DNA of 64,000 nucleotides. Origin: Centroberyx gerrardi (lineage: Eukaryota > Chordata > Actinopteri > Beryciformes > Berycidae). Below the pieces are notes generated by a model that saw nothing but the letters and a program-made list of their open reading frames with translations, was not told the DNA's origin and did no database searches. Shown piece after piece: positions 1,622-54,400 of this stretch (position 1 is the stretch's first letter; every line of letters begins with the position of its first letter). Location of the stretch: NCBI RefSeq assembly GCF_048128805.1, contig NC_136002.1, positions 26,556,602-26,620,601 of the forward strand. Direction: 5' to 3'. Made by a program: the position numbers and the translations under genes.

Positions 1622-4226
1622 ATCCTCAGTTTCTAACAAGCTGGACTGTATAGAGAGTTTGAGAAGATCATTTCCTATCTAAAGATAACGGTGGATTTTA
1701 AGACGCAACAATGATGAGTAAAGAGTGAAAAGTGCTTGATAAGACCCAAGTCTCAGCTCAGTCAGGACAGGCTGAACTGATTTGGGTGAAAAAAAAAAAA
1801 AGAGGAGTCCTGAAGACTTGTTTACCGATCTGATCTCTCTGCACGTCACCTGTGGGAAGCAGAGACTCGGTCCTCTTCGCTCTGCTGGAGCTCTCACACC
1901 TCCTGCATGCTGGCCCTTCACTGCTGTTAAGGTTTAAAACACTTTAACAGGTGATATGTTCTGAGAGACTCAGTGAGAGGAGGCCCATCTGCTTTCGGGT
2001 TCCCATCAAGGTACGAACAGATGGCTCAACGTACCTACAAGGTGCATACATCACTTTTGAGTTACTTAATTAGGCAGTTGGTGATCATTAAACGCTGTAC
2101 TGGGTTCTTGGATTGCAGATCTGTCGAATACGAAGTGACAGGCAGAGTGTGGCACTTTAGTCGTTGGACATCTTTGGGATAATTTGTGTTCATATTTACG
2201 TTTGACTTCCAATTGATCCAGTTCAGATAATTGCTCCAAAAATATCTCCACTACAAAAAGCACCTAGGTCACTTCCTATTCCAAATTGGATCTAAATTTC
2301 ATTCTATTACAAAATAATTCCACTTAATGGGTGATTACATTTGTGAGGAACATCTGAAACACAACGTAAGCGCAATGTAAATTTTTTATCTTGTTTTGTG
2401 TTGTTGCCATTCTTGCTATTGTTGTGTAAAAACTGCATGAAAACTACACTTTATAAAAATTTAATCCTAACTGAATAACCATTGAACGATTGCAAAATGT
2501 TTGTCATCACGTACATGACGTTTACTGAAATGTTACTGTATTTTGCTTAAAAAAAAATGTTGCCTTAACAATCAATACAATCTTTTCTTTTTTCTAAAAA
2601 GTTTCCTTGCATTATTTTTTTGGAAGAATGGATTGTTTAATGTATGGTTATTCAGTTTTCCTCCAGAATAAGATACAGAAGTCTATTTCACAGGCCTGTA
2701 TCCACATTGCATCCTAAAAAAAATGGCATCCTAAAAAAATATCCATCACATGTGGATAGCATAATATCTATTTTGTTTTATGTAGCACACAAATTAGTAT
2801 GTTATGCAGATGGGGAATACAGCAGCAAATAGTGGAGAGTAAGACAGTGTTAACTAATAAGGGGTGACAAAGGCAAATAGAGTGTTAAAGAAAAGAAGAA
2901 AAAAAACCATTATAGCACTTTGAAGCATCACTCCATGTGGGTCAGTGAATGTATAAAGAAGGCATGGTTTGGAACATTGCTCTAGGGCGCCATCTTGTGA
3001 GTAGAATTCAACCAAGTGTTAAATTGGATGTGCTGGGAACAGATCTCTGGTGGAGAGCCAAGTTAGCTCAGTTACTCTCACATTTATAAAACACTGCACA
3101 ACCTTCCAGTACACGTGAACAAAATCAATGCCTATACCCCTTTAACTCCTACAATGTGATGGAGTCATTCAGTGTGGCAATATAGCTTAGTTGGTACATT
3201 TTATACTTTTCTCAACAGAGGATCCAAGGAATGAGACAGCAGCATTAAGAAACTATTTCTGTTAAATTAAAATAGGATACACGTCAATTAACGTTAAGGA
3301 ATCAGGCCCAATAAACCATTATCTTATTCAGATTAATAGATTTCAAACATAGGATGAAGGCCAATGCATGGTGCCCAAATGTCAAGCCGTAATTATACAT
3401 CACTACATTATAATTTAAATCCCATCTGCACCTAGGAGCTGCTGCCCAGTTCTAGCAAAACAGGACAGCAGCTATATTATGTTCTTCAGTGAGATCAACT
3501 AAGATTATGTTTTGTTTTGTTTTTTTTATTTGAGTAACACAGCCCTTTGGCTCCTCTTGTGAACTTGTCTGCCAAGGGACAGACTGTCTGCAGAGCATTC
3601 ATTTCCATCTGTGCAGAAAATACCAGAGCATGTCACACACATGAAAGGGCCTCAGCATCAACATCATTTAGTTTGGAGGGGGACCCATAAAAAAATGATT
3701 TCACCCAGCCCATCTGCACCCATCTTATCCTAAACTGCTTTGTCCCTTTTTTTTTTAAATTATTATATCAGCACCAAACTAAAGCTTGATTTTCCTTTCA
3801 GTTGCAGACTGATACCTTACTCAGCCAAATTCATTTTACCTTTGCAATGTTATGTGCAAACAGAGAAGAAAAGAACTGGGAGTACATATCTGTAAGATAA
3901 CCTCCTAATCTAAACAAAGTTGGCCTTGGTTTAACACCAAGCTTCAAAACGTGACATCCATCAGGCCATTTTTGAACTTGAGAGTCAATAGAAAACCATG
4001 TTATCCTTTTATATTTAAGGCCATCCAAATTGGTCTGCATGGTTAATGATTTAACAGTACATGATATGGGTCAGTTGCCATTACAAACTCAAAAAAATGG
4101 CAGGTTGTGTAAATCAAATAAAGATAAGACTTTGACTCGACATAGCACTCGAAACGTTCCTAAATCTATCGGACCATCCGATTACATAACTGTCCTGATC
4201 AACCCACCTCAGGCACAGGAACATTG
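1622..4226. other. GCAP 3' UTR and intergenic DNA before thrsp
   Basis: Just after the GCAP stop codon is probable 3' UTR. No strong polyadenylation context was identified; ATTAAA occurs near 2088. The rest is AT-rich, apparently unique DNA with short A or T runs. I see no coding exon, RNA gene or clear transposon in it. Confidence 0.6.
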
Positions 4227-4234
4227 TATAAATA
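4227..4234 (+). promoter_or_regulatory. TATA box of thrsp
   Basis: The sequence TATAAATA lies 96 bp before the chosen thrsp start codon. A transcript starting 25-35 bp downstream would begin near 4,260 and have a 5' UTR of about 70 nt. This argues that the in-frame ORF extending upstream to 4,030 is not translated. A TATA promoter fits a strongly inducible lipogenic gene, but regulation is inferred. Confidence 0.7.
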
Positions 4235-4329
4235 CACCAGTGTCTCTCCTCATGGCTTTGCACTGCACTCAGGCTTCCAACCGCACCACCACAAGCACAG
4301 GAACAGCCCGCCAAACCCAACTGGAAACC

Positions 4330-4755
4330 ATGCAGTCTGCCGAGGCCAGAATCAACAGAAACAGCCTGCTGCTGGCGCTGAGGCGGTACAGCTCGGCCGT
4401 CCGGGACATGGAGCAGACCGTCCTCCTCCCCAGCCTGCTGCGGGACGTGCCCTCCGATGAGGTGTGGGACTGCGAGGCGGCGGAGGAGTTCTGCAAAGAC
4501 TTGTACGAGAGCTACGTGATGCTTAAAGCCATAAGAACCACGGTGGAGAGCGGCCTCATCCCGCTGGATGAGCGCAAGGCCAAGGCCAAGAGCAACACGT
4601 CTCTGAGCAAAACCCTGGAGCCCCTGCTGGAGTCGGACCCAGAAACCCTCTTCCACTTCCACCTGAGAGGACTGTTTTCTGTCATGAGCAACCTCACCGA
4701 GAAGACCCAGAGTCTCACAGACAAATACATGGACATCATCGGAGTGGCAAATTAG
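4330..4755 (+). CDS. thrsp: Thyroid hormone responsive / Spot 14 protein (THRSP-MID1IP1 family)
   Basis: Single coding exon, 141 residues (human THRSP has 146). The N-terminus carries the family signature: N11-SLLLALRRY, then MEQTVLLPSLLRDV at residues 27-40, matching the MEQ/MDQ-V-x-PSLLRDV core of Spot 14 and MID1IP1. The remainder is helical and acidic, ending DKYMDIIGVAN. The family acts in cytosol and nucleus to promote lipogenesis; MID1IP1 drives acetyl-CoA carboxylase polymerisation and THRSP forms heterodimers with it. The start ATG at 4330 was chosen because it lies where the family begins and follows a TATA box at 4227; the reading frame stays open upstream but that part has no family similarity. 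The tail-to-tail placement with ndufc2 is the same as in mammals and favours thrsp over mid1ip1. An AATAAA lies at 4890. Confidence 0.92.
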   Translation: MQSAEARINRNSLLLALRRYSSAVRDMEQTVLLPSLLRDVPSDEVWDCEAAEEFCKDLYESYVMLKAIRTTVESGLIPLDERKAKAKSNTSLSKTLEPLLESDPETLFHFHLRGLFSVMSNLTEKTQSLTDKYMDIIGVAN

Positions 4756-5289: not shown

Positions 5290-8176
5290 CTAGCGCACAG
5301 GATGGAAAGGCTCGACAATCTCAGCAAAGGTCTTTTTGTCTGGTGAGATAAAGGGAAAAGAGAATACGATTTGATTACACACAAACGTGGGCCGATATAT
5401 TTTAACCTCTGATTACTCTGTGTAGAGATGTCCCAAAACACTTCATACTATACAGAAATCATAGTACAAACTACAGACAATGTCCCCATTTATTGACTGG
5501 ATTTGAATAATTTGGTCTGTGATCAATATATGATGTATGCTGATAGAAGCAGGGCAATATGATACTATAGCTAAAGATTATCCCTCACATCAGAAATGTT
5601 CTAAACTTTTTAAGACCCTGGAAATGATCAAATTCAATCTTCATGCTTTCCAGCCCTGTGTAGGAACCCTTCAGCAGAGCCACATGATTTGACAATATTG
5701 TCTTTTGGGCGCAATACATGAGTAGGTCTGCTGTGTACTCAAGAATGCGAAAGAGTTCTCAGCACATCTTATCCATTTTTTAACACTAAGAAGCCAGATT
5801 TGTGAAGGGAAACCATTGTTGAGCACGCTGCCTTAGAAATCTGTAAATGTCAACTATACGCAACTTCATCCTTGAAATGTTTTACTTTTGACAGGTTATA
5901 GGAAAGACCATGTCTTGCTCTCAAATAATTATTCTAATATCTAATAATTAAATGATTCGTCAGATCTGTTCAGAACACTGATCTACAGCTTTCCATATCA
6001 AAGCGTCACATTTTGTTGGCTCTGCCCATTGATTTGTTATATAAAATAAGATGAAACTGTAATGATCTCCATGTATGAAATTGGGTCATTGCAGCAGCAA
6101 ATAGTAGAAACTGGAGTAGAAATAAGAATACAGTAAATGGGGGGTATTTAAACATAACACAACTGACAATTACAACACTAGAAGATATCACATAGAAATA
6201 TATGAATGCAAAGTATGAAAAAAATATGAATTCTAGCACATATGAAAGTGTGCAGCCATAAAACATAGACAAAAGAAAAAAATAATGAAATGTAAGTACA
6301 ATATTAAAATATACCAAAAATATTACATATAGACAGTATAAAATAAGTGACAAAAATAAGTAGATATACTCATTATGTAAAAAATTAGAATACAACAAAT
6401 ACGTGAATTTATAACACATACACAGGCCGTACAAAATGTGTCATATTCATATTAACAGGTTTACAGACGACCATACATATGTACAGAAAGTGTCTAAGCA
6501 TGCAAAATGATTATGATATGAATGCAGCCTAATTGCTTTAATGATTTTGCAAAAGAAGTGTTTTGGAGGGAGAGGGTATGGAGAAGTCCTTTGCAGTGCT
6601 GTTGTTTGGTCCTTCTGTCTTTTATTTTATGATTCAGAAAAACTGAAAAAGCTACTTACCCTTCATTGCAAATTCCTCTGGGTGAAGTTTTATATACTCG
6701 TTCATGTCCCGGTCAAGTCTGGCAAAGGTGTAATTTTCATATTTCGTGACATGGTAGCCAATGAACCAACCAAGGGTTGCGAGCAGGAATTGCCGATGAA
6801 GACCTGAAGAAAACAGAGAAGGAAATTGTAAATAACAGATAATGGACCTAAGCATACTCAAAATATGACAATACAAGAATGTCAGATCTGCAACACTCAA
6901 AGCACAATTAAATGAATGGTTTGAAGCCTTCGACCCTGCCGGTCCCACTGATGAGTCCATCATTACAAACACATGTTGCACGGCCAAGCTTTGTTCAAAC
7001 CCACAGAACTTTATATTAACTTCTAGTGAAGATCCCAAGGTTTCCAAACATACCAAACATCACGCTGAATTACATGGAAATGTGTATAAACTGATGCACA
7101 AGATATGACATGATGACAGACGTGTTATAACTTCAATGAAGTGCTGGACAGAGGAAAGGCAGAATATGTTTGTGACACTGACATAAAGTATGGGAAAAAA
7201 ATGTCTAACTTTGAAGCTCTGATTCCCCCCTAATTAAGGGGGGAAACAGAGTTCAAGGGGTCAAGCTTTCCTTAAGCTTATGTAGGGTCACATGGCTTGC
7301 GCCTTATACTTTTCAAGGAGGAGACAGGGTTTCTGCAGGTTTTAGAAAGCTAAATTTAGAACTTTTTAAGACCTTTTTAATACTACCTGGAACTGAATTT
7401 AAGACCAACTTAAAAAAAAAAAAAAAAAGAAAGAAATCTAACAAAACCTCAATTATTTGTGCTTGAACATGGCTCATGGAAGTTATTAAACTATAAATAA
7501 ACAATGCAAGAAAAAACACACCAGATTTGGTATATTATATTGGGATATTAAGTCCATTTGTGTTTAGTAAAGCGTAGACGATGCATACTAACCCTGCTGC
7601 ATACTACTAACCTGTTATGTGGACATGCAGCAAAATGAAACCTGTAGCCTAATTACAAAAAAAAATTAACCTCCAAGGGCTACATTTGAGACATTTTAAT
7701 ACTTTTTAAGGAATTACATTTTGATTATTTATTTTAAGACTTTTCCCAGACTTTAAGGACCAGATGACAGGGTTAGCACACACACACAGCACACACTGAC
7801 TGCACACACACAGTCATCATAACATGGATGTGTCAGAGATGTTTTCGTTGCCCCATGACAAGTTAATACTCTGCTGCGACAATGCAAGTGTCGACTTTAT
7901 AGTAATTATGCCACGAGTCATCATGACAGGGGAGGCTGACGAGGCTAAGCTCGCACACTTTTAATTAAAAGCTACATACGCTTGAAAGGAAGGTGTACCA
8001 TAATCGCAGAGTGGAGGAAGGAAGCTAACATGCTAACCTGATTTCAGCGGCGGCCTGCGGTTAATGGCATTATGGAGCAACGCCGTGCACCAGCCGACGC
8101 CAGCCAGCCACACCGAGTTCCTGTTCGCGATCCCCGGAGGAGAGAGAGTCTTTGCCTCGTCCGGCATTAACCCCAT
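5290..8176 (-). CDS. ndufc2: NADH:ubiquinone oxidoreductase subunit C2 (complex I)
   Basis: Three coding exons on the minus strand, 8176-8038, 6803-6660 and 5339-5290, join in frame with GT-AG introns into 110 residues (human NDUFC2 has 119). Exon 1 encodes MGLMPDEAKTLSPPG, the family's PDEARxLPPP-like start, plus the first hydrophobic segment (VWLAGVGWCTALLHNAI) and the RRPP motif. Exon 2 encodes the second membrane segment (FLLATLGWFIGYH), followed by YENYTFARLDRDM and YIKLHPEEF. Exon 3 encodes DKKTFAEIVEPFHPVR, matching the conserved C-terminus. NDUFC2 is an accessory subunit in the membrane arm of respiratory complex I in the mitochondrial inner membrane. It faces thrsp tail to tail and diverges from rab30. 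Intron 2 (5,340-6,659) is very AT-rich and contains only spurious ORFs. Confidence 0.95.
7325..7773. repeat. Degenerate dispersed repeat in ndufc2 intron 1
   Basis: The sequence begins CAGGGTTTCTGCAGG. Inside are several copies of a theme of the type ACTTTTTAAGACCTTTTTAATAC, once forward near 7,350 and again near 7,690-7,750 as TTTTAATACTTTTTAAGG and TTAAGACTTTTCCCAGACTTTAAGGACC. This resembles a common fish non-autonomous repeat. The right terminus and any target duplication are not clear, so boundaries are approximate. Confidence 0.5.
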
Positions 8177-33464: not shown

Positions 33465-34427
33465 ATGGCTGTTCAGACTGCAATCATGAACCCCCAGTTC
33501 ATGAATTTCTGCTTCCCCGGATCTGTGATGGAATACGACATGGACAAAAGTCTGGATGGGAGTCTCCTGGGTGAGGCAGAAAATGACGGGGACTACAGAG
33601 AGACCACTAGGGACCTGCTGAGTTTCATAGACTCAGCCTCCAGCAATATCAAGCTGGCTCTGGACAAGCCAGTAAAATCCAAGAGGAAAGTCAACCATCG
33701 TAAGTATCTGCAGAAGCAGATCAAAAGGTGCACAGGCATTATAACACCAGGGAACATAGCAGAAGCCCCAGTAAAAAGACAGGGCTCCCCTCTGGCTCAG
33801 CCCAGCCCTTTGCAGAGCAAAACTCTACCTAAGCGTGACGGGGTCCAGGCCAATTTGCAGAGCAAGAGTTTGGCAGCCCTTTTCAACCCTGTGAAGGATA
33901 TTAGGGGTGAAAAAGCCAAGAAGCCGCCCCTGAGGCATCGCAACCTGCCCCCCTCATTCTTCACTGAGCCTGCCAACTGCTCCAAAGTCAGCTCCACGTC
34001 TGGGATGACTCTGAAGGACTTGGAACGAGGCAATCCTGAGGCTGCGGAGTTCTTCGAGCTCTTGGGGCCTGATTACAGCAACATGGTCAGTGACCAGGAC
34101 CTTTTTCAGAGCGTTCCTACTCGGGCGCAGCAGGAGATAGCAGGCCCGGATCCCGCTTCCTATGACGCCCACCATTTAGTCGGTGGTCTGCTCTACTCTG
34201 AGCCCTGGACTACCTGCTCTGGACCTTCTAAGAAACTGGGAGACAGCCTGCGTTCAGGCCCGGCCCAGCCTCCTGCCTACTGTCACTCAGAGGCTGCTGC
34301 TGGGCCGATAGACGACAACACACTGTGCACTTTGGCCTTCCCAAACTTCTTCACAGACTGCTCCATACCTCAGGTCACCTATGATTTAAGTGGTGGTTAT
34401 AGCAGACCGAATTTTTCATCTCTATGA
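33465..34427 (+). CDS. fam181b: FAM181B, TEAD-binding developmental protein
   Basis: Single coding exon of 320 residues. The start at 33465 (MAVQTAIMNPQF) was preferred to the in-frame ATG at 33414 because human FAM181B also begins MAVQ. The strongest family block is at residues 49-89: RDLLSFIDSASSNIKLALDK, then KSKRKVNHRKYLQKQIKRC. A second block, PLRHRNLPPSFFTEP (155-169), is the YAP-like omega-loop motif through which FAM181 proteins bind TEAD transcription factors. Further matches are AAEFFELLGPDY (193-204) and the C-terminus YDLSGGYSRPNFSSL. The protein is otherwise disordered and proline/serine-rich. It is expected to be nuclear, with expression in neural progenitors known for the family. 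It follows prcp as in human 11q14 and borders a gene desert. An upstream leader intron is possible but unproven. Confidence 0.95.
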   Translation: MAVQTAIMNPQFMNFCFPGSVMEYDMDKSLDGSLLGEAENDGDYRETTRDLLSFIDSASSNIKLALDKPVKSKRKVNHRKYLQKQIKRCTGIITPGNIAEAPVKRQGSPLAQPSPLQSKTLPKRDGVQANLQSKSLAALFNPVKDIRGEKAKKPPLRHRNLPPSFFTEPANCSKVSSTSGMTLKDLERGNPEAAEFFELLGPDYSNMVSDQDLFQSVPTRAQQEIAGPDPASYDAHHLVGGLLYSEPWTTCSGPSKKLGDSLRSGPAQPPAYCHSEAAAGPIDDNTLCTLAFPNFFTDCSIPQVTYDLSGGYSRPNFSSL

Positions 34428-45690: not shown

Positions 45691-46085
45691 ATGGACAGGA
45701 CTGTAACTGCTGGACCCTCTGCAACAAAACAAAACAAGAAGCCTATAACAGAAGAGGCTAAAACAGAGGGAGGGCAGCCCAAGACCCGGAGCACCGGTAG
45801 CCCCGCGGATCGATCAGCTTGAAGTTCCCGTTCCCCGGCCCCCCGCAACACGGCAGACCGGAGACTCCGGTCACCAAACCCCGGGAGCCCGACGGACCCA
45901 TCGGCGGCCAGCACTAGTTCTGTAAGAGGCTAAAAGAGCTACGAAGGAGCGTGACAAAGCTCGGCGTCAGACCGACCGGAGTTAACCGCGGCCAGAGTAC
46001 CGCGTTCACTCGCCGGAGAGCTAGACGGGAGCTGAAGAGGTTTAAGACCGACCCAGAGCTGGCTTTCTTTCTCCTACACATGTAG
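45691..46085 (+). pseudogene. Decayed N-terminal coding remnant of a fish DNA transposon
   Basis: GC-rich, CpG-containing island in AT-rich DNA. A frame opens at ATG 45691 (MDRTVTAGPSATKQNKKP) and stops at 45,822. After a break, fragments in two other frames read AKRATKERDKARRQTDRS (from 45,929) and LKRFKTDPELAFFLLHM (46,032-46,082, then TAG). The order basic KERDKARR, then LK-x-DPELAxFLL, recalls the N-terminus of an abundant but poorly named protein family encoded by fish DNA transposons. At least two stops and one frameshift show it is dead. Element ends were not found. Confidence 0.45.
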
Positions 46086-46685
46086 CGGAACTGTGTCCTG
46101 AGCTGGACACTTTTTTGCTAACATTCTATTAAGATTTTGTAACTTCTTACCTTTCTAACCATATATCGTTTTAATCATTTACTTTAGATTTGTCTTTACC
46201 AGAGTCGGAAAAAGGACGCTATCGCCGGTCATTTAGCTGCGCGCTAGGCTTGTCCTGATTCGGACACCCCTCTCTTCACGCTGTAAACACCACGCGCTGC
46301 TGATTTTGCAGCGCTTTTAGGTTGTTCCTGAGTCAACCAAGTCTACATCAATCATGACAAAACATCCGGCACCGTACTTCCGTCCTTCAAGATAACATAT
46401 TTCAACAACTCCATGCTCCAAATAATGTAGTTAAGGCTCCTTAATTTCCATTTTGCTGCGTTACCACCACCTGCTGGATGTTTTGTTAAAGTCTCTTCTA
46501 AGTTCGATCACTTACAAAATACCAGCTGATGCATTAAATTGAGCAATTATACATTCATACATAACAATTGCCAGTAATACACACAAGAGTATTTATGGCA
46601 GGACTATAAACGTAAGTGTTTATGACTAAAATGGTAATTGTCTGAATCAAAGACAAATGACTATAGCAAATGATGGAAAATATTA

Positions 46686-46691
46686 TTTATT
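46686..46691 (-). terminator. Polyadenylation signal of the pogo transposase gene
   Basis: TTTATT on the plus strand (AATAAA on minus) lies 82 nt after the stop codon of the spliced transposase reading frame. Confidence 0.6.
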
Positions 46692-46772
46692 CATTAACAT
46701 AAAATATTATATATTGATTAACATAAAATAGACAGGACAAAAAATGCAAATAAATAAATAAGACAAACAAAA

Positions 46773-48955
46773 TCAAACATCTAAACACCAATAACAGCAA
46801 AAGTCATGATCATCGTCGTCCAGCTCCTCCTCCCAGCCCACAGAAATGGTGTGAAACCATTTGTGGCAGTTGTCACACTGGACCCACGACACCAATCCCT
46901 CCGAACTTTCCAGAGGGTCAGGTTTCCTGCACCGGCCACACCGCCAAACTGTCGGCTCCTGTCTTCTTTTCCCAGCGGTGTGACCTACTCACACAAAAAA
47001 AAAATTGTAAGAAAATTGCCTGATTATCATGTGTTGGCATGCAAAGACGGTCAACATGAAGTACACTACCGGTGGATGTCGTGGATCCAGCAGACGAGGA
47101 GGAGCTGGACGACAAGGTAACAGAAGCCTGGTTGGAGGCTGTAAAAATAAGAGACAAAGCTTAGACATGTCTTGTTTATTCTTCATCAAGGCTAATGTCA
47201 CCAACATGTTAAAATGTTGTTTGTTTTTACAGATTATATAAAGGATTTACTTTGGGAGGGAGAGGAAGAAATTCGGGACTCCCAGAGGCCACATCCTGAT
47301 GTCGAAGGCTCTAAAAGAATGATAATATTTTATATTAAAACATGAAAATACATACTCCCAATAATGTCTATGCATCATAGTAGTTCTTAAATTTCGATAT
47401 TTAAATTCAATTAAATGCACAGTCAAATGTAAAATAGATATGATTTACCGTCCGCTTGTCCACCAGGAGATGGGGGATGGTGCTGATGGTCCTGAACAGG
47501 CAGGCTCGTTGGGGATGGTGTGCCGCTGGGGGCAGGCAGCCGGGGACCATGGGAGGCACAAGAGGGGGCCAAGGGGGTTGAGGGACCGGCGATGGGAAGG
47601 CCGGAGCTGGTGGCTGGAGCAGCCCTGAGGGACATTCTGCGGCTGGGGGGTGGGGCAACTGGGGATAGGGGAGGTTGGATGGGGTGGGTAGCATCAGGCG
47701 TGGCCCAGGAAGATGCCGATGGGGTTGGCAGAGGTGGTGAGGAGGTCCCACGCCGTGGCCCGGACGGCATGACCCGAGACCAGTCAATGGCCATTGGGTC
47801 CAGAGGGTAGAGGCCACACCTCCTGAACCCAGCCACCACCACTCTCCGATCTTTAAGCCTCTGGTATGAGTCTCTAAGGACCCTTGAAAACTCTTTCTTG
47901 GGAACCAAGAAAGAGTGGCTCACAGCCGACAGATCTCCTGTAAGACCAGAGAAATCTGCCTTCAGGGGTCCAAAGAAACTCACATCCAGAGGCTGCAGGA
48001 TGTGAGACGTGTGTGGTGGCAGGCACAGGAGAATGACCCCCTCCCTCTGTGCCACCCGGACCAGCTCTGGATCCAGGTGGGACTTGTGTCCGTCCATGAT
48101 CAGCAGCAGCGGGCGCTCCTGGGCGGCGAACTTCAGGAAGTGCCCGACAAACCACTTCCTAAACAGCTCACCGTCCATGTACCCTGCCGGTGACTTCCCA
48201 TAGAGGGCATCAGGGACCCCTTCCTTGTTATAGGGGCCCCCTGGATATCCCCCCTTGTAGATGACAAAAGGGGGGACATCTTCCCCAGCCGCATTGAAGC
48301 AGGCCAGGATGGTGATGTGGTCCCTGGTTCCCTGGGCCTGCCTATATGCATGTTTGGTCCCTCGGGGCACGATGACCTTCCTTCTCATGGAGTCCAGCTG
48401 AAACCCCGTCTCGTCGCAGTTGTAGATCTGACGGGGTTTCTCCCTCAACTCGTGCTCCTCCAGGGTGGCAGTGAGGAGCCTGAAATATTCGTTTATGGAC
48501 CCCCTCTTGGCACAGGATGCCCTCCCATGGTCAATGATGTCTGGGGTCCAGGCAGTGAGGCGATGGTGGTACCGTTCTCTAAAATTAATCCACCACGTCT
48601 GGCCAACCGCAGTCTTCTGTGCGTTTGGGTGTCGGCGGTTATAGATGGCCAGAGCGTGGGCCTGGATGTGAGGCTTCGTCAGTGGAAACCCATGACTGGC
48701 AGAATACAAACAGTACTCCACCAGGGAATTTTCATCTTCAGGGGCGAGAAGTGGCCTCTGACCATGGACACAGCCAGAGGCCACCCTTCCACTGACTCGG
48801 TCATTCAGGCTGGACTTTGGGACTCCAAACCGTTTGGCTGCCTGCCTGCAAGTGAGCCTGCCTGCTTCCACCTCCTGCATGGCCTGTTCCATGGCCTCCG
48901 GGGTCCACTTCCTCGTCTTCCTCTCCCTCTTTCGAAGTTGCCGGATGTTTGGCAT
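46773..48955 (-). CDS. Intact multi-exon pogo-type transposase with C-terminal PHD-like zinc finger
   Basis: Four minus-strand coding exons, 48955-47449, 47310-47251, 47138-47070 and 46984-46773, join in frame with GT-AG introns of 138, 112 and 85 bp to 615 residues without any stop. The start ATG directly follows a splice acceptor (AATTTACAG). Domains in order: psq-type helix-turn-helix (21-57); CENP-B-type DNA-binding region (about 64-145); DDE_1 catalytic core with Asp181 in CDETGF, Asp288 in MDGHKSH and Asp324 in LQPLD, giving DD35D; a proline/serine-rich linker (400-545); and a PHD-like finger (559-612) with C561/C564, C582/C585, H590 and C609/C612. The sixth PHD ligand is Ser593 where Cys is usual. 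It catalyses cut-and-paste transposition in pogo/Tigger relatives; the PHD would read histone tails if functional. Reading on past 47449 instead gives a 510-residue product that ends inside the intron and lacks the finger. Terminal repeats of the element were not found, so a domesticated gene cannot be excluded. Confidence 0.88.
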
Positions 48956-49641
48956 CTGTAAATTGATATACATTTTTTCAGTCAGAAATAAACTCTAAAT
49001 TACGTCTACAGGCACATTTCATGCCTTGAATATAGGGCTGTCCCGAATACCGTTTTTGGGGCTTCGAAGCTTCAGTGAGAATTACCCTTCGAGGGGGTGG
49101 GGCGGGAGTCCACGGCCTTTTCTGGCAAATATACATTGATGTGGGCGGAGATAATCTGCCTTTTCCGGACGTGTTTGGACGTGTGTTAAGGTGGAAAACT
49201 GAATTTTCCGGACGTATTTGGACCATGTGTGCAGGTGCACGGAGATTCCTGGTGAGTGTACAGTGATATCTGGTAATTTGCGACAGTATACGGGAGCGAG
49301 CTGACATTTAACGAGGCGTGTACAGTGACAGAAATCTCCGGTACACAAAAGTTGTACGTTGTCGGGGAATTACGGACGTGTGGCGGCCCGAATATCTCCT
49401 GGCACGTCGGAAGACAAGTCCGGATACAGTGCGTTTCCGTACGCGTGTACAGAGATGTACAGGATGGAAACGTAACTTTTCGTCCAATGAACAAAAAAAA
49501 AAAATTTGATTTGGACGTTGATTACCATGGCAATGGTAGAAGCTTCGAAGCATTCGGGTCAGCCCTACTTGAATAAGGTTGAAAAAAATTCTATAAATTG
49601 CCATAATTGCAATATCACCATTCATAGACATGAATATTTAC
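48956..49641 (-). other. Predicted 5' UTR intron of the transposase gene, enlarged by a hAT insertion
   Basis: On the minus strand a donor TTTAAG/GTAAATATTC at 49641 and an acceptor AATTTACAG ending at 48956 frame a 686-bp intron just before the start codon. Removing the 535-bp hAT element and one copy of its 8-bp duplication leaves 143 bp, in line with the other introns of this gene (85-138 bp). The 5' exon itself is not delimited. Confidence 0.5.
49033..49567. mobile_element. hAT MITE with perfect 8-bp target duplication
   Basis: Starts TAGGGCTGTCCCGAATACC and ends with the inverse type CATTCGGGTCAGCCCTA. It is flanked by CTTGAATA at 49025-49032 and 49568-49575, a perfect 8-bp duplication. 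Subterminal GCTTCGAAGC palindromes occur near both ends. No transposase is encoded. It was inserted into the upstream (5') part of the pogo-type transposase gene, so it is younger than that gene. Confidence 0.93.
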
Positions 49642-49968
49642 CTTAAACCAAAGCAGCATTTAAATTTCTATATCCACCTTTACTTTTAACATCTTGATGC
49701 TCCTGCAAAAAGGAAAAAAAAACTCTCTCTCTCTCTCACACACACACTGTATCTAACTTTCTTACTTTCTCTTCCTGTGGTCCTCACTGTTCTTGTTGTC
49801 TCCTTTCTCCTTCTTCCTTTTGCTCCTTGTCTCCTCTGTCTTCTTTTGCCTTTCTTTCTGTCTCCTTTCTCTAACTTACTTTAAAGTCAAGAACATAAAC
49901 CACACAAGATCACAAAGTTGAATGTCAAATCTATTCAATTTTGGTTTTACATGTGGTCAACTCATATA

Positions 49969-50073
49969 TGTCATTTTGGTATGAATTTTGCTCGTCCAGA
50001 AATGCAGTAAATAAGCTCCATTAAAAGAAAAAATTCTGGACCTCACTAATTTCTGAACCCTGGCTACGGCCCT

Positions 50074-50074
<1 letters not shown>
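49969..50074 (-). mobile_element. Inverted end fragment of the hAT-like element found at 51.2 kb
   Basis: The inverse of this stretch nearly matches the left end of the 51,217 element: AGGGCCGTAGCCAGGG, then AATGGAGCTTATTTACTGCA, then TTCTGGACGAGCAAAATTC. It differs by a roughly 26-bp insertion near its terminus. The terminus abuts a (TA)n tract. The far end of this copy is not recognisable. Confidence 0.75.

Positions 50075-50078
<4 letters not shown>

Positions 50079-50122
<44 letters not shown>
50079..50122. repeat. (TA)n microsatellite
   Basis: More than 20 TA dinucleotides between the hAT fragment and the Tc1-like element. TA is the Tc1 target, so the tract may have been seeded by the insertion site. 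Confidence 0.9.
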
Positions 50123-50125
<3 letters not shown>

Positions 50126-50688
50126 TCACTGGCCACTTCATTAGGTACACCTTACTAATACTGGGTAGGTATCAGCTTTCAGCTCAGTGTCAACCGGCTA
50201 CCAAAGTGACATCCGCCTCAAGGTTCGACGTGTTGCATTCTGAGATGCTTTTCTGCTCACCACAGTTGTAAAGAGGTTATCTGAGTTACTATTGCCTTTC
50301 TATCAGCTCGAACCAGTCTGGCCGTTCTCCTCTGACCTCTGCCATCAACAAGGCATTTTTGCCCAGGGAACTGCCGCTCACTGGATATTTTCTCTTTTTT
50401 GGACCATTCTCTGTAAACCCTAGAGATGGTTGTGCATGAAAATCCCAGTAGATCAGCAGTTTCAGAAATACTCAAACCAGCCCGTCTGGCACCAACAACC
50501 ATGCCACGTTCAAAGTCACTTAAATATCCTTTCTTCCCCATTCTGATGCTTGGTTTGAACTTCAGCAGATCGTCTTGACTATGTCTACATGCCTAAATGC
50601 ATTGAGTTGCTGCCACGTGATTGGCTGATTAGATATTTGTGTTAACAAGCAGTTGAACAGATGTACCTAATGAAGTGGCCGGTGAGTG
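50123..50688 (-). mobile_element. Internally deleted Tc1/mariner element
   Basis: The ends CACTCACTGGCCACTTCATT and (inverse) CACTCACCGGCCACTTCATT match with one difference over about 28 bp and are flanked by TA on both sides (50121-50122, 50689-50690). This terminus type is widespread in fish Tc1-like transposons. The 566-bp length and the truncated transposase show that it is non-autonomous. Confidence 0.92.
50257..50541 (-). pseudogene. Truncated Tc1-like transposase (DNA-binding N-terminus only)
   Basis: A 94-residue frame begins MGKKGYLSDFERGMVVGARR, continues with the helix-turn-helix SISETADLLGFSCTTISRVY, and then WSKKEKISSERQFPGQK and the GRGQRRTARLVRADRKA second helix-turn-helix entry typical of Tc1 transposases. 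It ends soon after VTQI, and the whole DDE catalytic domain is missing. It could at most encode a DNA-binding fragment. Confidence 0.9.
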
Positions 50689-51216
50689 TATATAGCCCAC
50701 AACATTATATATATATTAACATTAACATTGTAATTAACATTACATTGAAGGTTTATCTAAATAATCAACCTTTCCGATCAGAAGAGCTGGCTGGCTTCAA
50801 CACATGCACACAGACACACACTCTCCCGCACACACAAGTTATTTTCATTTTAAATCATGGTGCATAAATATACGGGATCTAGACAAACTTTAGAACAACT
50901 TAAACAGCTTTTTAAAATCTTATGTTAAAATGTTTTAGGGTTCATTTTTTATGTCTACTGTCATGTTGTAGATATCAGAAAAATAACTGCATTTGAGACA
51001 TGATTCTTTGTTGAAGTCTTTCCTGCGGTGACAACTTTTTTTTCTAGACAGCCCACTTTTCTGCCCCCCTCCAACTCGACTACAGATGATGTCACTCAGT
51101 ATCCTATATTTTCAATGGTTAGACAAAGCATTGTAAAGCTAGCCAAAGCTACCAAATTCACTCATATGAGTGCAGGGTTTAGGCATTACAGTGAAAAAAC
51201 AGACGCAACTTGTAAG

Positions 51217-51428
51217 CAGGGCCGTAGCCAGGGTTTAGAAATAATGGAGCTTATTTACTGCATTTCTGGACGAGCAAAATTCATACCAAAATGACACCTA
51301 CAAACACAACCCAAGCTATACACTACACACAAACTCATTATCTATAATTAAATACATACAGAGGCACCTGTTGGCAAAAATACTTTTATTAAAGCTGCAC
51401 AATTTGTCACAATTTACTCTCACTCTTC

Positions 51429-51459
<31 letters not shown>

Positions 51460-52286
51460 ATGTTTGGATGAAGAACACAGTAACTACAGGCTGTTCACTA
51501 GCCTCCCTTGTGTTGATTTCCTGCATACATCATGGTCTTTCCCTCCACTTCTTCACTTCTTGGCTCACTGAAATTACATAAAATAAGAAAGACAGATACA
51601 GACACACATAAGTTATGATAAGTTAGTGCAAATGCGACAGGGAAATATTGGTATACTAATCTTCACAATATGCATTACCTTTTGGAAGGCTAGCTGGGTT
51701 TTTAGTTTTTTATTTTCCATGCTTTTAATAAAAGATTCGTTTTTAAATCTGTGCATTTGAAAATGTGAAAGGACAGGCACTTCTTAAGCCAAATAATTTT
51801 ATCAATGTAAAAAATATTAATTACAGAATTTCATTTGAGAAAACCAACTCTCAGCCTGGCCTCTCTCTTTGCTGTTAACTAAGTTAGTGTTTACATGTTA
51901 ACTAGCTATCAGCCTCAAGCCAGCTAGCCTTGCTTGAGTCCTGCACTCTTCAAATAAGTGAAATGCTGCATACTGTATCAACACTGATGCTCTAGTTAAT
52001 GTTGTTAATGAAAGCTTCTTAGCAATAACTTATCTTTTACTTAACCTTTTACTTAACGCACACAGTAGGCTGCCTGGTCGATGCACAGATAGGGGAGAGA
52101 CCGGGAGAGACACTCACCTCGGCCGGGTGTCGCAACTTCCTGTATCCGTCGTTTCAAATTAAAAGCCCTCTAGCGTTACATACACGGTCCAGCCATATAC
52201 TAGGTTTTTGACCTACCGTAGTCTTGTTTTAGGACATAATTACCGAGGTCCGGACCTCGGTGACCTCAGAGCTGGCTACGGCCATG
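51217..52286. mobile_element. Non-autonomous hAT-like element, 1.07 kb
   Basis: Starts CAGGGCCGTAGCCAGGG and ends (inverse) CATGGCCGTAGCCAGCT, about 15-bp inverted termini. The flanks CTTGTAAG (51209-51216) and CTTGTAGA (52287-52294) agree in the first six of eight bases, suggesting an aged 8-bp duplication. The interior has a (GT)n run at 51,436-51,460 and no significant ORF. A partial inverted copy lies 1.15 kb to the left. Confidence 0.75.
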
Positions 52287-54400
52287 CTTGTAGAGTAAAA
52301 TCGTCGCCCAAGCGCGTTCTTACGGCTTTCTCTCATCAAAGTCACTTTCCTAAAGTAATTGGACATTTAAATGTCCATGTATTCATATGAAATTTGACAT
52401 GTAGATTCTTAGATATGCATAAATTAATTCCACTTACATTAGGTGGCGATCGCTGAAATGAAATCCCCCGCGAAAAGACCGGAAAGTGCGTCAGAGTGCG
52501 TCAGACCAGATGCGTCCGACTTTGGACCTTTTCTCCTAGAACTGAATTCTCTACTTAAATCACTCAGTTTATTAAACAACAAAAAAACTAATAAGCTATT
52601 GAAACATTATGGAACTTTTTTCCCTGAAACCTCTGACTATCCCTGCAGATATATTACGGTCACTTTGTGCTATGTGGCAATACAAATCCTACTTAGTAGT
52701 TTAGTTTATTCAGTTTGGTGTTTAGTTTGTTTTGGTTTAGTTTGATTTGATTTAGTTTATTTTATTGGCACTGTGATAAAACACATGATAAAAGTAAAGA
52801 GATAAACACAAATTTGTGAGATACTGTGAAGTGTGCACATTGTTGACATGGCTCTTGGTGTAGGGAGGATATTTAAAAATATCACAAAACAACTATATCA
52901 AATGATATAAATCAAATATATCGTGCATGTGCCCCCTGATGTCAGAACTTTTACCAAGAAAGGCAGAATAAGAACTATTTAAAAAAAAGTTAACTATTTT
53001 AAGACTTATGCTAACTTAGGTTATTTGATTTGTGGGTAGCGTTACTGTATCTTATCACATCACAGGCTATTCAGGATGACTGATAAATAAAAACAAAAAT
53101 CATAACTTCTTCTGAAATAACAGGTAGACTGAATCCTTTGTCATAATCCAATTTTGCATGATAGCACCTTTGTGCATTGCAGCTGAAATATCACATATCT
53201 GTTGAAATTTAAACTTATCCAACTAGCTTGTTGTGTGTTGTGCACAGGTTTACTTCTTAGAGGTGCTGGCAAAATGCAGAAATACAATGTCCATAAAAAA
53301 AAAAAATCAGTAGGTTTTGCCACACACTTCATCACTCATAGACCAAATTGTTACAATCATTTATCTCTTTATTTTTTTCTAATGCAATAGCATTTTGAGG
53401 GAACAATGTGTTTTGCATTGTTGTTTTGTCACGTTCACTCAACCAGTTTTTTCATCCGGTCATTAATTTGAGAGTTAAAGCAATGAAGTTATAAAGACAC
53501 AGTGCCTCTTTATGTCCTTGTTCGTTTTTGTGATATGCTAATGTATGCAGATTAAGGGTCTATTAGCATCTTTGTCCCAGGAGATATGTCTGCATGTACT
53601 GATTGTATTTCTGGGGCCAAAAATTTATATAGAGCAGCCAAGTTTTTCCCTCGTCTGGTAAATTGTTCCATTAGCCTTCCACCAAAAAATAATTGTAAGG
53701 CTTCCAAATAACCAGGCAGCCTATTCTCCAGCGTTATCGACAATTATTACTAGTTTCCGACTACACAACTTCATGTTGGAAAGATAGGCTTCATAGGTAC
53801 TCAGTGCTTTGGATTCATACCGTATGCCAGAGAATCTATTTTCACTCCGCTATGCGCTGCGGAATGAAAAATAATCAATCCTATTTCATTTATTTCTCCT
53901 TCAAAACGTCCTTTAAGAAGTTAAATTTGCCCCTTTTCAATCTTTATGCATGATGGCATCTCCTCAAAAGTTTGGCGAATATCTATCTAACTCTCCCGCA
54001 GAAACTCTGCTGGCTTGCAGAGTGCCAGGCGAACTCCGTAACAGATGTGTGTAATAGGTGAAATCCTCTCGAGCAGCTGCATTCAATACTGGTTCATTGA
54101 CCATACAAAGACAAATGACTAACAGCTGTTTTTGTTGCAGCAGTCACATTCTTAGAAGGTGCATTTGTTTCTTTTACAGTAAATCCCATACTCTACAGTA
54201 TGCACATACTCCTGTGTAACAATCCCACAACCTGCCAACCAACAAAACCAACCAACCAACTCAATTATACATCTTTGATTTATACCCTTTAGGCTTAATT
54301 ATCATAGAACTTAGACTATACTGAAAAATTTAAGGTGATAACCTGGCACAATATACTTAAATTATGACTGATTCTGTGCATATGTAATTGTTAATAGGTA

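Follow-up and report, generated by a model that had tools for sequence, protein, structure and literature searches.

A dead pogo transposon copy in Centroberyx gerrardi and a transposon lineage whose transposase probably ends in a KDM5-type PHD finger

A gene in a 64-kb stretch of the Centroberyx gerrardi genome (hereafter the window; C6:26556602-26620601 of a 779-Mb genome) belongs to a damaged cut-and-paste DNA transposon of the pogo superfamily. We consider it probable, all parts taken jointly, that this is a dead copy from a lineage whose transposase is encoded by an intron-bearing gene and ends in a finger of the KDM5 PHD3 type that would bind histone H3. The window copy itself cannot move, because a zinc ligand of its finger has been lost, the linker has been deleted and the 5' end of the element is gone. 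Judged from sequence, the combination of transposase and finger is a trait of the transposon lineage and not a one-off gene, since sister copies elsewhere in this genome have an undamaged finger.

Gene model and domains of the transposase

The gene lies on the minus strand, and its joined coding sequence of 1848 bp forms a single open frame of 615 residues plus a stop. Its exons measure 1507, 60, 69 and 212 bp, and all three introns begin with GT and end with AG. Exon 1 (47449..48955, minus strand, as are the others) encodes the transposase with its HTH_psq, HTH_Tnp_Tc5 and DDE_1 (DD35D) domains. Exon 2 (47251..47310) and the serine-rich exon 3 (47070..47138) are followed by exon 4 (46773..46984), which encodes a PHD-type finger and then the stop. 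The coordinates, strand, exon lengths, splice sites and frame given in a preliminary description of this DNA were all reproduced, as was its catalytic triad of D181, D288 and D324, in which 35 residues separate D288 and D324.

The domains of the 615-residue protein were tested against the Pfam cut-offs. HTH_psq (residues 18-59), HTH_Tnp_Tc5 (75-130) and DDE_1 (213-335) all scored above them, the DDE_1 match at 7.3e-17. This match with its three Asp residues, and helix-turn-helix (HTH) DNA-binding domains of the pogo kind, are the features by which we place the protein in the pogo superfamily. The likeness to the superfamily as described in PMC7386202 covers DDE_1 with DD35D, the HTH domains and, apparently, a TA target site and short terminal repeats. 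The families named in that source are Passer, Tigger, pogoR, Lemi, Mover and Fot/Fot-like (PMC7386202); it lists HTH_psq and HTH_Tnp_Tc5 for Fot/Fot-like, with listed hosts that exclude fish (PMC7386202). Compared by description, the domain content of the window protein resembles Fot/Fot-like, and its triad spacing fits both Passer and Fot-like.

The gene model was compared with that of L025, a copy on chromosome 4 whose transposase is 80% identical to that of the window. L025 has all three introns at matching places and in matching phases, with every exon piece open and about 744 residues in total. Its exons, sized by manual rather than scripted reading, are 1900, 54, 72 and 209 bp, the 54-bp and 72-bp pieces being the open counterparts of exons 2 and 3. 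Since the same intron places and phases recur with open pieces, the agreement is beyond chance, and we regard the four-exon splice model, as predicted from genomic DNA, as right. In both the window copy and L025 a splice acceptor is seen directly, immediately 5' of the ATG, and upstream non-coding exons are therefore likely in both.

Elsewhere in the window, we noted a host gene of the Spot 14 family (4120-4752), the host gene NDUFC2 (6655-7059, minus strand) and a host protein with a TEAD-interacting motif (33465-34424), which we take to be FAM181-like.

Copies with a linked finger and selection on the finger

A search of the genome with the transposase returned 71 matches, which were grouped into 48 places; the finger, with E values up to 10 accepted, gave 26 matches. 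The finger is present in homologous copies as well: at 14 of the 48 transposase places, on 13 chromosomes, finger matches follow on the same strand 385-1756 bp downstream, and these make up 15 of the 26. The weakest of these linked matches has E = 1.66. Among the 11 unlinked finger matches are a deletion derivative, on chromosome 16, and a KDM5-like gene of the host (L021). KDM5 is a possible source of the transposon finger. The linked copies fall into group A on chromosomes 6, 17, 4 and 18, a divergent group B on chromosomes 8, 1, 22, 11, 15, 13, 3, 5 and 12, and one outlier on chromosome 4 that stands outside both. The pairing of a pogo transposase with a PHD-type finger, first described for the window gene, is thus common to many copies, divergent ones included. 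A search of a viral contig collection gave no confirmed relative.

The remaining 34 of the 48 transposase places have no linked finger, some of them because they are truncated. They include the well-kept frames L027, L028 and L031, which may represent finger-less lineages or truncated copies, while L026 ends before the finger. Long open pogo frames were seen at L028 3194-4504 (54% identical), L027 3726-5027 (70%) and L031 3292-4764 (42%).

Three group B copies were read, and each has a single open frame that runs through a charged linker and the finger. A linker motif in group B resembles that in group A, with an hhalign probability of 75.6% (P 2.4e-5, three sequences a side); single-sequence BLASTP between the two groups was not significant, and the homology of the linkers is based on this one hhalign result.

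The Pfam PHD model was run on seven stretches, namely the window finger and six relatives, with a cut-off of 24 bits. Five of the six relatives exceeded it (L025, 24.9; L034, 36.9; L032, 33.8; L038, 28.7; L035, 27.3), and the truncated piece L043 failed it at 12.7 bits. The window finger (561-612) scored 17.4 bits as an isolated stretch and 12.6 bits when the entire protein was used, so that the assignment to the PHD type passed this threshold in most of the relatives and not in the window copy itself. The L025 finger has all eight C4HC3 ligands, as do six of the seven group B fingers. The exception, when aligned without gaps, is L035, which has Tyr at the last ligand and Cys next to it; in a gapped alignment the ligands and both Trp residues are invariant among the seven.

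A profile of ten fingers (A11) was compared with proteins of solved structure. Its best matches of 53 were PHD3 of KDM5B (8.7e-8) and PHD3 of KDM5A (3.1e-7), which are thus the best solved relatives, and both Trp residues of that finger type are kept. The ten sequences came from 15 fingers first picked for alignment; the five excluded were L024 and L029 (frame-shifted), L036 (with a stop) and the partial matches L040 and L041. In KDM5 PHD3 two Trp residues form the cage for K4me3. We propose that the finger of this lineage probably binds histone H3, and a histone-directed role for it appears plausible.

The ratios of non-synonymous to synonymous change (omega) were estimated for both parts of the protein. 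Between the sub-clades of group A, omega was 0.16-0.22 for the transposase (first 1210 alignment columns) and 0.29-0.33 for exon 1; among close pairs, the window copy against chromosome 17 gave 0.84 and chromosome 4 against chromosome 10 gave 0.47. For the finger, omega was 0.19 between the window copy and L025 and 0.24 between L034 and L032. Among five close group B copies it was 0.11-0.17 in seven of ten pairs and 0.72-1.74 in the other three, which have one or two synonymous changes each. Nine of the ten finger pairs between the two group B subgroups were saturated. From these values we conclude that selection has maintained the finger in those lineages that remained active.

These comparisons bear on whether the finger exon could be an unrelated neighbour, joined to the transposase by a coincidental splice model. 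Such a reading draws on a gene model predicted from DNA alone and on a window finger that falls under the PHD cut-off. However, L025 keeps the introns and their phases, the finger follows the transposase at 14 places spread over 13 chromosomes, and its frame is under purifying selection in most of the informative comparisons. We consider a chance neighbour extremely improbable and retain the reading of the finger as part of the lineage's transposase.

Decay of the window copy and the ends of the element

The window copy had been described as intact, which it is not: compared with its closest copy, on chromosome 17, a stretch of 399 bp (133 codons) is missing from exon 1 of its gene, and the outermost 5' end of the element is gone. 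The junction of this in-frame deletion is at 47645..47646 (minus strand), where 399 chromosome-17 bases stand opposite a gap, and a segment alignment places in the deleted stretch a linker segment that is conserved in other copies. What remains of the element (46085..52527, minus strand, with its 3' end at 46085) is interrupted by later insertions. At the other side, the element begins to match the chromosome-16 copy at 52527, a point about 40 bp in from that copy's end, so that some 40 bp of outer 5' end are missing from the window element beyond 52527. One later insertion of about 770 bp in the 5' part (49964..50731) is absent from the chromosome-17 copy; by eye it contains a Tc1-like HTH fragment, for which the Pfam matches were just under the cut-off. 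A hAT-like short element with the inverted ends agggctgtcccgaat and attcgggtcagccct was also recognized by eye within the pogo 5' part (49034-49566), and a perfect 55-nt inverted repeat has its arms at 49969-50023 and 51242-51296 with 1218 nt between them.

Damage is also seen in the finger. The spacing of zinc ligands noted in the preliminary description holds for seven of the eight C4HC3 positions (C561, C564, C582, C585, H590, C609 and C612), and the aromatic pair W579 and W588 is present. The sixth ligand is replaced by Ser593 (codon at 46842..46844, minus strand), which is Cys in the other three aligned copies. In the same alignment, Cys608 (codon at 46797..46799, minus strand) replaces the conserved Trp before the seventh ligand. 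Both changes are private to the window copy, the other three aligned copies retaining the Cys and Trp codons. The window finger is 69% identical to that of L025 and, used alone, matches KDM5B PHD3 at 1.7e-5. Its score below the PHD cut-off agrees with the two changes, and in its present form it probably cannot read histones.

The preliminary description had raised the possibility that the gene was domesticated and kept by the host. In its favor, the gene retains an open frame of 615 codons where sister copies are broken, and the 5' end of the element has been lost, as in many domesticated genes. The substitutions point elsewhere. In exon 1 the window copy has 4 synonymous and 8 non-synonymous private changes, and the chromosome-17 pseudogene 7 and 12, respectively. 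Assuming 3.2 non-synonymous sites per synonymous site, the probability of 8 or fewer non-synonymous among the 12 changes is 0.32 under neutrality, while that of 8 or more is 0.05 under an omega of 0.2, a poor fit. The private substitutions of the window copy look neutral, on the small number of 12 changes, and give no sign of constraint; domestication is for this reason unsupported. The element moreover abuts another repeat at a TA, and a zinc ligand has gone along with the 5' end. We regard a host-kept gene as very unlikely and read the window copy as a dead transposon.

The 3' end of the element is present at four other places, where homology stops at 46083 in three and at 46079 in the fourth; a common 3' end is thus found at five places, the window included. 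The TA at 46083..46084 is the boundary at which the element matches and the flanking-repeat matches overlap, and it is presumed to be one half of a TA target-site duplication. The second half was not found for the window element. In other copies, too, the 3' end lies at a TA. The flanking sequence (45819..46084, plus strand) is part of a dispersed repeat, truncated at the TA where the element begins; it accounted for 35 of the 45 matches in the boundary search, and these 35 end at query positions 42-46. This repeat has 35 or more further matches; two of its copies were read, and both run on past the TA. It appears exon-like, with GT after the last codons in intact copies. The continuation of the interrupted repeat was looked for within the window and was not found, which fits a loss of adjoining DNA along with the 5' end.

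The motif GTCC-N6-GGAC occurs at the 3' terminus of the element (46095..46108), in a subterminal position on the 3' side (46252..46265) and in a subterminal position on the 5' side (52514..52527). The more general RTCC-N6-GGAY has four matches in the 64-kb window, three of which are near the element ends. An inverted-repeat search around the window gene gave no convincing terminal repeats, because the 5' end is missing, and a local alignment of the two ends of the window element scored 23, below shuffled controls (up to 32). The chromosome-16 deletion derivative, about 1.9 kb long, has TA on both sides and imperfect terminal repeats that match at about 19 of 26 positions by manual count. Chromosome 7 carries a derivative of some 430 bp (G000:C7:7870058-7870489) that, going by coordinates only, has both ends of the element and is likely to be a MITE.

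A possible role for the finger and its relation to known systems

Members of the pogo superfamily bind the ends of the element with their HTH domains, and their DDD domain carries out cutting and insertion at TA. In working members of the present lineage, the helix-turn-helix domains would accordingly bind the ends of the element, perhaps at the GTCC-N6-GGAC motifs, and the DDD domain would cut and join at TA. The finger would bind the tail of histone H3, most likely when it carries H3K4me3. Once bound, it could hold the enzyme on open chromatin and so bias where copies leave or land. We put forward tentatively, as somewhat less than an even chance, that this pogo lineage has its own KDM5-type H3K4me3 reader, which directs excision or integration to active chromatin and makes the enzyme an independent, single-protein counterpart of RAG1/RAG2.

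The finger could instead serve to bind DNA at the ends of the element itself. Its model would be piggyBac, in which a cysteine-rich domain with the fold of a PHD-like finger binds a repeated motif at the transposon ends (PMC8086355), and the GTCC-N6-GGAC motifs do recur near both ends of the window element. However, the protein already has two HTH domains, its finger is closest to histone readers and retains both Trp residues, and the group B finger is by sight rich in Asp and Glu. A role in binding the ends is in our judgment rather unlikely, and we continue to favor histone binding.

In RAG1/RAG2 the finger is on a separate partner protein, and the enzyme is of a different family. The likeness is that a DDE-type recombinase is guided by the RAG2 PHD finger, which binds H3K4me3 (PMC6941560). 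Ginger1-9_HM, of the Ginger1 type, has a transposase with a C-terminal PHD finger (PMC2836005), but this transposase is integrase-like and has a Ulp1 domain as well (PMC2836005). A zinc domain at the C-terminus of the transposase is also found in piggyBac, PiggyMac and Tpb2. The cysteine-rich domain of piggyBac is PHD-like but binds DNA (PMC8086355), that of PiggyMac binds H3 weakly whatever its methylation, and that of Tpb2 prefers H3K9me3/K27me3.

Within the pogo superfamily, fused extra domains (KRAB, zinc finger, dimerisation) are reported for domesticated genes (PMC7386202). POGK and POGZ, domesticated Passer genes, likewise combine a pogo transposase with an extra domain, and DD35D is kept in POGZ. 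They are host genes with KRAB or other zinc fingers near the N-terminus (PMC7386202), whereas here it is the transposon's enzyme itself that carries, C-terminally, a PHD finger. Searches of an open-access library turned up no account of a pogo transposase that carries a PHD finger; papers that one search returned have the two terms in separate places, and the word PHD is absent from the main text of PMC7386202 and PMC9976928. Database entries with the pogo-PHD architecture, in Repbase or from automatic protein annotation, may well exist.

What makes these results interesting is the family, a pogo lineage in which a KDM5-like PHD finger is under selection, rather than the damaged window copy. 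Here the transposon's enzyme itself includes a domain of the chromatin-reader type, which selection has maintained in copies that have diverged. If the finger reads H3K4me3, the lineage would be a simple and testable case of a transposon that steers itself by a histone mark, and tools for targeted insertion could naturally be developed from it.
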